This document shows, piece by piece, positions 31,868-37,254 of a DNA stretch of 45,024 nt. Positions within the stretch are counted from its first letter, which is position 1. Each line of letters opens with the position of its first letter. The DNA lies in the NCBI GenBank assembly GCA_945907245.1, contig CAMDTB010000026.1, forward strand, positions 1-45,024. The letters run 5' to 3'. Below the pieces are notes generated by a model that saw only the letters and a program-made list of their open reading frames with translations, was not told the DNA's origin and did no database searches. Both the position numbers and the translations under genes were made by a program. The DNA comes from Rhizobium sp. Q54. Lineage in GTDB: Bacteria > Pseudomonadota > Alphaproteobacteria > SMXS01.

Positions 31868-31966
31868 ATAGGCTTCCCTTGCTTGTCCGGGGCATGCTCG
31901 CTGCATAAGGCAAAAGTCCGCGGCCGTGATTGACCGCGATCAATCACTAACCTACGGCAAAAAATT

Positions 31967-34227: not shown

Positions 34228-35466
34228 ATGAGCACCATCACCGACTATGCAGCGGTCGCGGATCCGCGCACCTGGGGCGACGAGCGCCAGCTGCTCGCGC
34301 TGCTCGACGACATGCGCCGCAACGCACCCGTCGCCTGGGTGGAGCCGCCCGGTTTCCGCCCGTTCTGGGCGATCACCAGGCACGCCGACATCATGGAGCT
34401 GGAGCGCCAGAACGACCGCTTCCTGAACGGCCCGCGCGCCGTGCTGCAGAGCATCGAGCAGGAAGAGGCGGTGCGCGCCTTCACCGGCGGCAACCACCTG
34501 CTGCTGCGCACCCTGATCCACATGGACAACCCGGACCACCGTGTGTTCCGCGCCATGACCCAGGAATGGTTCCAGCCGCGCAGCCTCAACAAGCTGCAGG
34601 ACCGCATCGCCGACCTGGCGAGGCGTACGGTCGACCGCATGGCGGGCCAGGGCGGCCGCTGCGACTTCGTCAAGGAAGTGGCCGTCTGGTATCCGCTGCA
34701 CGTCATCATGATGATCCTGGGCGCGCCCGAATCCGACGAGCCGAAGCTGCTGAAGCTGACCCAGGAACTGTTCGGGGCGCAGGATCCCGACATGCAGCGG
34801 ACGTCCGCGCCGGACATGGGCACGGTGCAGGACTTCTTCGCCTATTTCACCGCCATGACCGAGGCGCGCCGCGCCCATCCGCAGGACGATGTGGCGACGG
34901 TGATCGCCAACGCCACCATCGACGGCAGGCCCATCGGCCACCTGGAGGCCATGTCCTACTACATCATCATCGCCACCGCGGGCCACGACACCACCAGTTC
35001 GGCGACGGCGGGTGGCCTGCTCGCGCTGGTCCGCAGCCCGTGGGAACTGGAGAAGCTGAAGGCCGACCCGTCGCTGATCCCGTCGGCGGTGGACGAGATG
35101 ATCCGCTGGACGACGCCGGTGAAGCACTTCATGCGCACGGCGACCGAGGATTACGTCCTGCGCGGCCAGACCATCCGCAAGGGCGACGGGGTAATGCTGC
35201 TCTACCATGCGGCCAACCGGGACGAGGACGCGTTCAAGGCGCCCAACGAGTTCCGCGTCGACCGCGCGCCCAACCGGCACATCGCCTTCGGCTACGGGCC
35301 GCATCTGTGCCTGGGCCAGTTCCTCGCCAAGATGGAGATGCGCGCGCTGTTCGCGGAGCTGATCCCGCGGCTGGACGATGTGGCGATCGACGGCTTCCCC
35401 GCATGGGTCGAGTCCAGTTTCGTCAGCGGCCTGAAGCGCCTGCCGATCAGGTACAGCCTCAAATAG
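34228..35466 (+). CDS. Cytochrome P450
   Basis: A soluble 412-residue bacterial P450. I-helix AGHDTT (251-256), the ExxR motif as EMIR (290-293), the PERF-like region EFRVDRAPNRHIAFGYGPH, and haem-ligand Cys361 in GPHLCLGQFLA are all present, so the enzyme should be active. The overall text (HMDNPDHRVFRAMTQEWF, AYFTAMTEARR) resembles actinobacterial/alphaproteobacterial P450s acting on steroids, terpenes or alkyl chains; substrate is inference. GGGGAGGAACCT gives a strong ribosome site. No ferredoxin gene is adjacent. Its stop lies nine bases before an iron-control element of the next operon. Confidence 0.94.
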   Translation: MSTITDYAAVADPRTWGDERQLLALLDDMRRNAPVAWVEPPGFRPFWAITRHADIMELERQNDRFLNGPRAVLQSIEQEEAVRAFTGGNHLLLRTLIHMDNPDHRVFRAMTQEWFQPRSLNKLQDRIADLARRTVDRMAGQGGRCDFVKEVAVWYPLHVIMMILGAPESDEPKLLKLTQELFGAQDPDMQRTSAPDMGTVQDFFAYFTAMTEARRAHPQDDVATVIANATIDGRPIGHLEAMSYYIIIATAGHDTTSSATAGGLLALVRSPWELEKLKADPSLIPSAVDEMIRWTTPVKHFMRTATEDYVLRGQTIRKGDGVMLLYHAANRDEDAFKAPNEFRVDRAPNRHIAFGYGPHLCLGQFLAKMEMRALFAELIPRLDDVAIDGFPAWVESSFVSGLKRLPIRYSLK

Positions 35467-35474
35467 GCCGTCAC

Positions 35475-35491
35475 CTTAGAATTATTCTAAA
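35475..35491. promoter_or_regulatory. Irr-type iron control element (ICE)
   Basis: The palindrome TTAGAAT-T-ATTCTAA (35476-35490), flanked by C and A, matches the alphaproteobacterial ICE consensus TTTAGAA-N3-TTCTAAA bound by Irr at all but one position. It lies six bases upstream of the -35 box of the DUF2061 promoter, a position that allows either activation or repression. Irr control is inferred from the motif. Confidence 0.65.
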
Positions 35492-35497
35492 TATTTC

Positions 35498-35526
35498 TTG
35501 ACCCGCGCTCCAGGCCGGCCTATGTT
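35498..35526 (+). promoter_or_regulatory. Sigma-70-type promoter of DUF2061-globin operon
   Basis: TTGACC (35498-35503) and TATGTT (35521-35526) are separated by exactly 17 bases, 29 bases before the DUF2061 ATG. The promoter is framed by the ICE palindrome upstream and a Fur-like palindrome across its -10. Confidence 0.65.
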
Positions 35527-35543
35527 GCGAATTACTCGCAACA
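35523..35543. promoter_or_regulatory. Fur-like palindromic operator
   Basis: TGTTGCGA (35523-35530) and TCGCAACA (35536-35543) form perfect eight-base arms around ATTAC. The core TTGCGAATTACTCGCAA differs at one base from the TTGCGAAT-N-ATTCGCAA form common for Fur-family boxes. It covers the -10 and start site, a repressing position. Which Fur-family protein binds is unknown. Confidence 0.55.
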
Positions 35544-35555
35544 GAGTATGCCGCC

Positions 35556-35792
35556 ATGACACGGGACCTGACCAAGACCGCCACCTTCGCCGCCCTGCAC
35601 TTCACCGTGGGCTTCGCGGTGACCTATGCCTTCACCGGCTCGGTCGCGATCGCGACCGGCGTGGCGCTGGTCGAGCCGGCGGTGAACACGGTGGTGTTCT
35701 TCTTCCACGAGCGCGCCTGGCGCACCGCCGACCGGAAGGCGCAACGCGGCGCCGACACGGTCACGCTGGGCGGCCACGCCCACGGCTTCTGA
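35556..35792 (+). CDS. DUF2061 family small membrane protein
   Basis: A 78-residue protein with two membrane helices (about 12-28 and 32-50). The text KTATFAALHFTVGFAVTYAFTG, VALVEPAVNTVVFFFHERAW is typical of DUF2061 (a helix pair followed by a histidine in HERAW). Function is unknown. The ATG is decided by position after the promoter; the ribosome site is weak. It is the first gene of a probable operon with the globin-like gene 74 bases downstream, under putative iron control. Confidence 0.82.
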   Translation: MTRDLTKTATFAALHFTVGFAVTYAFTGSVAIATGVALVEPAVNTVVFFFHERAWRTADRKAQRGADTVTLGGHAHGF

Positions 35793-35866
35793 AGCCGTTT
35801 GATCGCCGTCAATGCAGCGGCGCCCTGGCCGGCGTTCAATGCCCCGTCAACCAAGGGGAACCTGTC

Positions 35867-36238
35867 ATGTCCATGCTTGCGGATATCGGCGGCACCGAGG
35901 GCCTGCACCAGGCATCGGACGCCTTTTTCACCCACGCCCGGGCGCACCCGGCGGTCAGGGCCTATTTCGAGGCCGTCGACGGCCCGAGCATGCGAGCCGG
36001 CATCGAGGAGGCGCTGCGCGCCCACCTGGATTTCGAACCGGACGAGGTTCCCCAGGCCATGGCGCGCGCCCACGAGGCGCTCGTCGGCAAAGGCTTGAGC
36101 AATGCCGAGTTCGACGCCTTGTACGACATCTATCACGAGACTCTGAGCGAGGCCGGCGTGCCGGGCGGGATGCTGTACGGCTTCCTCGAGGCGTTCGAGG
36201 ATCTGCGCGGCGCGCTGGTGGCGAAGCAACCGGCCTGA
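35867..36238 (+). CDS. Truncated-globin-like protein (group 1)
   Basis: A 123-residue all-helical protein with the layout of group 1 truncated haemoglobins: IGGTEGLHQASDAFF (A/B helices), HPAVRAYFEAVD (C-E), a candidate proximal His69 in ARAHEAL, and EFDALYDIYHETLSEAGVP with a closing helix. Sequence match is moderate, so haem binding needs testing. It would bind O2 or NO in the cytoplasm. An AAGGGGAA ribosome site lies seven bases before ATG 35867. It follows DUF2061 in the iron-box operon. Confidence 0.75.
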   Translation: MSMLADIGGTEGLHQASDAFFTHARAHPAVRAYFEAVDGPSMRAGIEEALRAHLDFEPDEVPQAMARAHEALVGKGLSNAEFDALYDIYHETLSEAGVPGGMLYGFLEAFEDLRGALVAKQPA

Positions 36239-36258
36239 CGCCCGGAAATCCGGGTGGA

Positions 36259-37254
36259 CTACGCTCCCGGATCGAGAGCGCCCGAACCGGCGCCGGGGAT
36301 CAGTCCGGGCATCCAGGTATCGAAGTAAGACGACAGCTTGCCATAATTGTTGTCCTCCATGGTTACCTCCTTGCCGAGCAGGCAGGCCAGGATGACCGCG
36401 TGAAGGCGGTCGGCGCGTATACGCGCCTTGGTCCTGAAGTGGGCCGCGGCTCGAGCGATCAGGCGGTCCCGGTGTCCTCGCCACATCCCCATCAGCAGCG
36501 CCTGCAGCGCCGCGCTGGGATTGAGCCTGAAGGCATGTCTCTGCATGCGGAAGAGCGACCGGTCCCTCGGCGTTAGAATGTCCTGCCAGTCCACTCCCCC
36601 AGGCGCCAATTCAAGCCGAGCGGCCTCCTGATCCGTGCGGCGAAAGACCAGCTCCCCATGGCCGGCCGCATCCGCTCCGAAGGTGGGTCCCGACCGCCAG
36701 AGATAATGCGCGGCGTCCGGCGCGGTCCGGCATGGCACGCCCATATGCCGCTCCGCCAGCTTCCGCGACGTCTCGTCCCGCACGAACAGGGTGCAATCCG
36801 GATGATCCCGATATGCAGCACCGCATGCAGCGGCGTTTTGCATATTCCGGAAATGGACTGTCTGCGGAAAGATCACGACCCGGTTATGCGGGAATCGCCG
36901 CAGGACATCCTGTCTGACCGACTCGTGCTCCGGCCATAGATCGCCGAGATTGCCGCCGCCATGCAGCAACAGAACGTGACGGTCCGTGACCGCGTCGAGA
37001 AAGCGCGCATAGTCCTTGGAACTGAAGCAGTGGGTCACCCGCCGCCCATGCCGGGCGAGAAGACTTTCGGTCCCGGCGAAAATCAGCAGATCGCCGACGT
37101 TCAGATGCATGGGAATGTCCAGATAGATGACCGGAGACTCCGCAGGGATCGTCTCGGTCAGCGCATCCAACCGCCGTTTAAGGGCGTCCATCGCCGCGGT
37201 CCGGTCACGGATGCGCGATCCGCCCGTCTGATGGAATGTTTCCGGACCAGTCAC
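36259..37254 (-). CDS. Polysaccharide pyruvyl transferase family protein
   Basis: The protein (about 331 residues from GTG 37254) contains PMHLNVGDLLIFAGTE, LLLHGGGNLGDLWPEHESVRQDV, VVIFPQTVHF and CTLFVRDETSRKLAER, the conserved blocks of the WcaK/ExoV/PssM-type pyruvyl transferases, which add pyruvate ketals to exopolysaccharide sugars. The start is uncertain: TTG 37320 adjoins the upstream stop, GTG 37254 has GGAGGG about ten bases upstream, and ATG 37191 matches where homology begins. It follows pdeM on the same strand. No other exopolysaccharide gene is adjacent. Confidence 0.85.
   Translation of the reverse strand: MTGPETFHQTGGSRIRDRTAAMDALKRRLDALTETIPAESPVIYLDIPMHLNVGDLLIFAGTESLLARHGRRVTHCFSSKDYARFLDAVTDRHVLLLHGGGNLGDLWPEHESVRQDVLRRFPHNRVVIFPQTVHFRNMQNAAACGAAYRDHPDCTLFVRDETSRKLAERHMGVPCRTAPDAAHYLWRSGPTFGADAAGHGELVFRRTDQEAARLELAPGGVDWQDILTPRDRSLFRMQRHAFRLNPSAALQALLMGMWRGHRDRLIARAAAHFRTKARIRADRLHAVILACLLGKEVTMEDNNYGKLSSYFDTWMPGLIPGAGSGALDPGA

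Follow-up and report, generated by a model that had tools for sequence, protein, structure and literature searches.

A candidate promoter with Irr- and Fur-type boxes before a DUF2061 membrane-protein gene, and its apparently separate globin neighbour, in an alphaproteobacterial genus

In the alphaproteobacterium Rhizobium sp. Q54, a promoter combining two Fur-family inputs probably serves a single gene, that of a small membrane protein of the DUF2061 family, with iron-loaded Fur as the putative repressor and Irr, placed upstream of the -35 hexamer, as the putative activator; this reading, drawn from sequence comparison, concerns a stretch of 45,024 nucleotides (contig CAMDTB010000026.1), which at its full length is called the window below. 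The novel element is the additional box of Irr type at a DUF2061 gene, together with its kinship with a promoter type found at peroxide-defence genes. The truncated-haemoglobin-like gene that follows appears to be a separate gene, whose control site is unrelated to the DUF2061 promoter (Table 1).

Table 1. Features of the DUF2061 promoter region and its flanks (positions in the window)
Feature	Position	Strand	Remarks
Cytochrome P450 gene	34228-35466	+	PF00067; landmark, outside the unit
ICE / Irr box (candidate)	35475-35491	+	17-mer CTTAGAATTATTCTAAA; 6 nt 5' of the -35; activator-type position
-35 hexamer TTGACC	35498-35503	+	
-10 hexamer TATGTT	35521-35526	+	17 nt past the -35
Fur-like palindrome	35523-35543	+	TGTTGCGA-ATTAC-TCGCAACA, whole TGTTGCGAATTACTCGCAACA; repressor position
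Fur-box core within the Fur-like palindrome	35525-35541	+	
DUF2061 small membrane protein, 78 aa	35556-35792	+	PF09834, E 5.6e-21
FNR/Dnr-like box	35799-35812	+	TTGATCGCCGTCAA; between the genes, 54 nt before the globin ATG
Group 1 truncated-haemoglobin-like protein, 123 aa	35867-36238	+	Proximal His69 kept; B10 Tyr replaced by Phe

Read directly from the DNA, the order of the elements is CTTAGAATTATTCTAAA, TATTTC, TTGACC, 17 nt, TATGTTGCGAATTACTCGCAACA and then the ATG, the stop codon of the P450 gene lying 8 nt ahead of the ICE; TTGACC-17-TATGTT is the sole promoter-like pair detected in 35440-36400. The ICE palindrome has its core, TTAGAAT-T-ATTCTAA, at 35476-35490, and the 17-mer agrees at 13/14 positions with TTTAGAA-N3-TTCTAAA, which we take to be the ICE consensus. 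An earlier, sequence-only reading of this DNA had placed a near-consensus ICE just upstream of the -35, and both the box and its coordinates proved right; its second claim, of a Fur-like palindrome covering the -10, holds in that the palindrome is exact, but the overlap is confined to the last four bases of the hexamer, together with the expected start site. The Fur-box core, which overlaps -10/+1, departs at 1/16 positions from the Fur consensus drawn up for this study.

Each palindrome occurs once in the window, as an exact copy; window shuffles lead one to expect 0.06 ICE cores at 2 mismatches and 0.17 Fur-like palindromes at 3 mismatches. In the 3.34-Mb genome the pattern TTAGAANNNTTCTAA is found exactly once, as the ICE core, a tolerance of 1 mismatch adding two more places (the reversed-pattern control gave 0), while the ICE 17-mer at 2 mismatches has 1 genomic site, that of the DUF2061 promoter, its reversed control likewise giving 1. 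It is hardly credible that the palindromes are products of chance or decay without function: 6/100 and 17/100 shuffles do hold such sites, but at loose thresholds, to which the two expectations refer, whereas both sites are exact and both boxes are kept in four genomes.

Candidate regulators for both boxes, which the sequence-only reading had called iron-regulator palindromes, are encoded. The genome has three Fur-family genes: one irr, whose product scores above the cut-off of two models (NF045678, 214.9 bits, cut-off 150; NF045677, 195.2 bits, cut-off 170) and which lies immediately upstream of a rubrerythrin gene; one for a Fur-like protein, below the cut-off of its best model (NF006999, 101.8 bits, cut-off 146); and one for a Zur-like protein, closest to a Zur model and also under the NCBIfam cut-off. 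A Fur-like site is present at a gene with a TonB-receptor plug domain, too. By eye, the Fur-like gene (L004, G000:C57) adjoins a gene resembling a MucR/Ros-type regulator.

Seven genomes of the genus, the studied one (G000) included, were compared. A close DUF2061 gene is present in four of them (G000, G002, G004 and G005), in each case behind an ICE and a Fur-like box in the same order, the G005 promoter having been read by eye, and a 131-base DNA search having matched G000, G002 and G004 only. The ICE of G002 is perfect (TTTAGAATTATTCTAAA, 14/14 positions) and its Fur-like box is altered to TTGATAATCGTTCGCAA, another Fur-like form; G005 carries TTGCGAGTCATTCGCAA; TTAGAA/TTCTAA is retained in all four copies of the ICE. 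Lack of conservation upstream of orthologues had been set as the refutation of the two palindromes; they recur in G002, G004 and G005, and the Fur-like box extends to 69/82 loci of a wider sample.

This sample started from 92 DUF2061 loci (61 in named genomes, a further 5, and 26 drawn from the best 30 matches, four of which were duplicates), the named genomes being those that matched one of two peptide patterns; the loci are best matches, thus a close subfamily and not all of PF09834, with many Aeromonas. Removal of ten duplicate upstreams left 82 loci (54 alphaproteobacterial, 28 others), among which L103, with a broken frame, was kept; start codons were assigned automatically and may be a few residues off (for example in L013 and L120). 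Four weak matches (L015-L018) stand outside the 92, their best Fur-like sites having 3, 4, 4 and 7 mismatches, and they have no ICE at 3 mismatches or fewer. A Fur-like site with at most 3/16 mismatches lies within 150 bp of the start in 47/54 alphaproteobacterial and 22/28 other loci, as against 40/1640 shuffles (2.4%) and about 0.6% of the 2001 windows taken elsewhere in these loci. Since this first Fur consensus had been shaped after the loci were viewed, the count was redone on textbook patterns: a limit of 3 mismatches to the 7-1-7 form gave 48/82 (shuffles 28/1640, other windows 14/2001), and a strict 19-mer at 6 or fewer gave 26/82 (40/1640 and 16/2001). The 13/82 upstreams with no Fur-like site at 3 mismatches include the gammaproteobacterial L085-L088, the Rubrivivax-titled L089 and the alphaproteobacterial L062, L064, L071, L134 and L136-L138.

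The iron context of DUF2061 is thus broad, and it is partly known already, Fur control being in print for Caulobacter: expression of the DUF2061 gene CC_0155 goes up 13.07-fold under low iron, and a fur mutant shows a 5.99-fold increase (PMC3751524). In Shewanella the DUF2061 gene SO_4740 is listed in a Fur-regulon table, its predicted Fur motif having a weight of 10.8; its log2 change of 3.51 belongs to an ssoR mutant and not to a fur test of the gene (PMC12442407). Both genes resemble the present one in coding for a DUF2061 membrane protein linked to iron or Fur; the excerpts mention no Irr box for either, unlike the present promoter. A literature search on PA3237, a Pseudomonas DUF2061 gene, with iron, or on SO4740, gave nothing further. 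The iron or haem context which the sequence-only reading had offered for DUF2061 accordingly stands as regards an ICE and a Fur-like box on one promoter, but not as a novelty in its iron part.

The ICE is much rarer at DUF2061 genes, being present at 2 mismatches or fewer in 9/82 upstreams (shuffles 4/1640, other windows 0/2001): the four genus loci, the Pelagibius-titled L061, L069 and L073, L059, where one site is the best match to both patterns, ICE and Fur, and L129. By eye, the ICE of the Pelagibius loci follows the -10, lies on it or directly abuts the -35; its logic there may differ, and activator logic may not be general for DUF2061. Within the seven genus genomes 14 ICE sites were found, as against 6 with the reversed pattern, so that the weak sites are partly noise; they precede rubrerythrin (4), DUF2061 (4), katG (2), dps (1) and a peroxiredoxin gene (1), and the 2 remaining ones, two-mismatch sites with no evident target, look like chance. 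Rubrerythrin, katG and DUF2061 promoters of the genus share one geometry, the 17-mer ending 5-6 nt before the -35 with its centre 37-39 nt before the -10; the dps site, by eye, falls after the expected -10 and ahead of the start codon, where a repressor would sit. At the rubrerythrin promoter of the studied genome the geometry is kept and the left half-site is degraded (3 mismatches to the ICE).

The same arrangement, an ICE core followed after 4 to 9 nt by TTGAC, occurs in 43/385 genomes of the class (45 matches; reversed control 0), and its 41 matches outside the genus lie before 31 rubrerythrin genes, 2 katG, 1 catalase, 1 AhpC, 4 SufB-like and 1 inverse-autotransporter-like gene, the last match being an overlapping reverse one. 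Measured at 47 sites, of which the genus contributes six, the spacer is 4 nt in 24, 5 nt in 5, 6 nt in 12 and 7 nt in 6, and an Irr-family frame was found in 23/30 of the loci checked. Promoters with an ICE upstream of the -35 thus form a genuine type, linked to irr by gene neighbourhood, and in the present genus DUF2061 has one as well. Mere chance as the origin of the ICE was rejected on the lone exact core, the shuffles and these class-wide counts. In four small genomes (G338, G260, G163 and G032; L177-L180) a SufB-type gene replaces rubrerythrin behind the ICE-TTGAC promoter, the assignment resting on Pfam for L177 and on N-terminus likeness only for L178-L180.

These counts bear on whether the ICE-like palindrome might be a second Fur site, Fur alone controlling DUF2061. 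We consider this unlikely: TTAGAATTATTCTAA is only two positions away from Fur 7-1-7 forms such as TGAGAATTATTCTCA, by what we take to be the consensus, and at L059 the best ICE and Fur matches coincide, but TTAGAA/TTCTAA has been kept in the four genus copies, and motif and geometry together recur at rubrerythrin, which accounts for 31 of the 41 extra-genus matches, irr being a neighbour in 23/30 of the loci checked. For Irr, ICE motif and regulator family are common to the present promoter and to the systems of Bradyrhizobium and Rhodobacter (blr7895/mbfA, bfr, ccpA); in Rhodobacter mbfA, a rubrerythrin-like gene, transcription starts inside the ICE, agreeing with repression, whereas the DUF2061, rubrerythrin and katG promoters of the present genus have the ICE upstream of the -35. 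Rudolph 2006, to judge from its title as cited, reportedly dealt with positive as well as negative control by Irr.

The mechanism favoured here, in which two Fur-family inputs act on a lone DUF2061 gene, would work as follows. Iron-loaded Fur would repress DUF2061 from the box at -10/+1; Irr at the ICE upstream of the -35 would activate it, as its position suggests and as is consistent with a review, a passage of which states that apo-Irr represses or activates depending on the location of the ICE (PMC7762939). Iron shortage with lagging haem would then increase DUF2061 through both inputs, as perhaps would peroxide stress, and the globin next door would be a separate gene with an FNR/Dnr-type input of its own. 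Against this explanation stand the 13/82 loci with no Fur-like site, the Fur protein scoring under its cut-off and the degraded ICE of the organism's own rubrerythrin promoter; moreover, katG codes for a haem enzyme, and its activation by Irr agrees badly with a signal of haem shortage alone.

The signal itself could be another, the anatomy being unchanged: the Irr-type regulator may report peroxide, or haem plus peroxide, which would make DUF2061 an oxidative-stress gene with an iron gate. The partners of the ICE (rubrerythrin, katG, catalase, AhpC/peroxiredoxin and dps) speak for this possibility, as does the described induction of PA3237 by UV plus H2O2 (PMC12632274). The regulator is, however, recognised by iron-response models, the SufB partners suit iron equally, and target lists are not decisive, peroxide stress being coupled to low iron; the list leans to peroxide in the present clade, yet as a full explanation the peroxide signal remains doubtful. 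In the open-licence literature, as far as its accessible parts go, no description of a regulon joining Irr, peroxide and rubrerythrin was found, and the claim to its novelty is a soft one.

The genes which the sequence-only reading had put behind the promoter are correctly named, DUF2061 by its Pfam domain and the truncated globin by PDB matches and fold. Pfam and NCBIfam profiles gave no globin match on the latter; its sequence matches PDB truncated haemoglobins down to E 4.3e-5, and its model (pLDDT 79) has group 1 truncated haemoglobins as best folds (prob 1.00), the ten best fold matches having TM 0.62-0.68 and an identity of about 19-27%, with none at E 0.001 or better. In an alignment made without L044, L047 and others, proximal His69 is invariant (24/24 globins), and position B10 (column 21) is Phe in all 4 aligned genus globins and Tyr in 19/20 others; both the B10 numbering and the oxygen/NO-handling role of a Tyr at B10 are taken here as presumed. 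Fold and proximal His are thus as in the group 1 truncated haemoglobins of Chlamydomonas and Mycobacterium (HbN), from which the present globin differs by its B10 Phe and by the missing Pfam globin match. Because the B10 Tyr has been replaced by Phe, a role as NO dioxygenase is less likely.

Between the two genes lies TTGATCGCCGTCAA, resembling FNR/Dnr boxes, whose consensus we assume to be TTGAT-N4-ATCAA; the window holds 2 such boxes, as against 0.08 expected. A box of this kind precedes the globin gene in 5/5 close genus orthologues, those lacking DUF2061 included, and the genome encodes CRP/FNR-type regulators, five of its six HTH_Crp_2 matches exceeding the cut-off; it is probable, from these sequence data, that the box is a separate promoter input of the globin. 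The second box, TTGATCGCGGTCAA (31930-31943, minus strand), lies past the 3' end of a radical-SAM-like gene and, by eye, about 60 nt before a small minus-strand ORF.

The distribution of the two genes bears on the DUF2061-globin operon proposed by the sequence-only reading. A close globin gene is present in G000, G002, G003, G004 and G006, and both genes are kept in G000, G002 and G004; in G005 promoter and DUF2061 are present but a globin match is not; G003 and G006 lack a close DUF2061 and keep the globin; G001 has neither in close form. DUF2061 and globin have therefore been gained or lost separately. In the 200 bp 5' of the globin in G003 and G006 neither an ICE nor a Fur-like box was found, the best matches having 6-7 mismatches. 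The G003 globin (L021, G003:C8, about 81533-81607) is split near a T run, its two parts matching in different frames: a broken gene or an assembly error.

Beyond the genus, the scan for conserved DUF2061-globin pairs which that reading had proposed found a globin near DUF2061 in just 5/82 loci, three from the present genus and two from one other (L131, G232; L132, G129), in which DUF2061 and a different globin, of about 20% identity, are divergently transcribed; these divergent pairs leave a small chance of a functional link between DUF2061 and globins. In L131/L132 the distant DUF2061 gene has a Fur-like box at 3 mismatches, CTAATAGTAATTCGCAA.

One iron- or haem-controlled operon forming a membrane unit for haem sensing or NO handling is, on this evidence, quite unlikely. 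The two genes are co-directional, 74 nt apart and with no terminator-like site found between them, so that read-through is possible, and besides the three genomes keeping the pair there are the two divergent loci; but the genes stand apart in G003, G005 and G006, the globin has its own FNR/Dnr-like box in all five close genus orthologues, 77/82 DUF2061 loci lack a globin (within flanks of limited length), and the haem-sensing or NO-handling function found no support, the B10 Tyr being lost. Control of the globin by iron as part of one operon was rejected on its separate occurrence and its 5/5 FNR/Dnr-like boxes.

As to the DUF2061 protein itself, it reaches 75.2 bits against PF09834 (cut-off 23.1), NCBIfam profiles giving nothing useful, and it is modelled by AlphaFold as a two-helix hairpin (helices 2-27 and 30-69, mean pLDDT 86.9). 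Among 55 aligned members K7, T8, H15, P41, T45, E52 and W55 are invariant, and V18, V22, Y24, G28, L38, E40, H51 are nearly so; at a guess, the two His and two Glu of the hairpin (H15, E40, H51, E52) would suit metal or proton handling, and the protein may, equally as a guess, handle iron or give protection at the membrane. The genome also encodes another protein, with a pair of DUF2061 domains in a single 175-aa frame (G000:C80:5173-5592; L002, L003), and longer, apparently tandem DUF2061 proteins occur at Aeromonas and Vibrio loci too. No constant neighbour of DUF2061 was seen in 22/82 loci surveyed by longest-ORF choice.

Taken over the whole class, the comparison allows a wider proposal, which we put forward tentatively: the ICE-TTGAC arrangement may be a distinct kind of activator-type promoter, spread across the class and serving an Irr-linked peroxide-defence regulon (rubrerythrin, katG, catalase, AhpC, SufB) which in the present genus has captured the Fur-repressed DUF2061 gene, whose hairpin would act where iron shortage meets peroxide stress. 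DUF2061, a family of unknown role, is tied to Fur-like boxes in two classes, the alpha- and gammaproteobacteria, and in one genus to an Irr-type promoter which otherwise marks peroxide defence; low iron plus peroxide is thus the condition under which its function may be probed, and the ICE-TTGAC geometry offers a simple search rule for possible Irr-activated promoters beyond the rhizobia.
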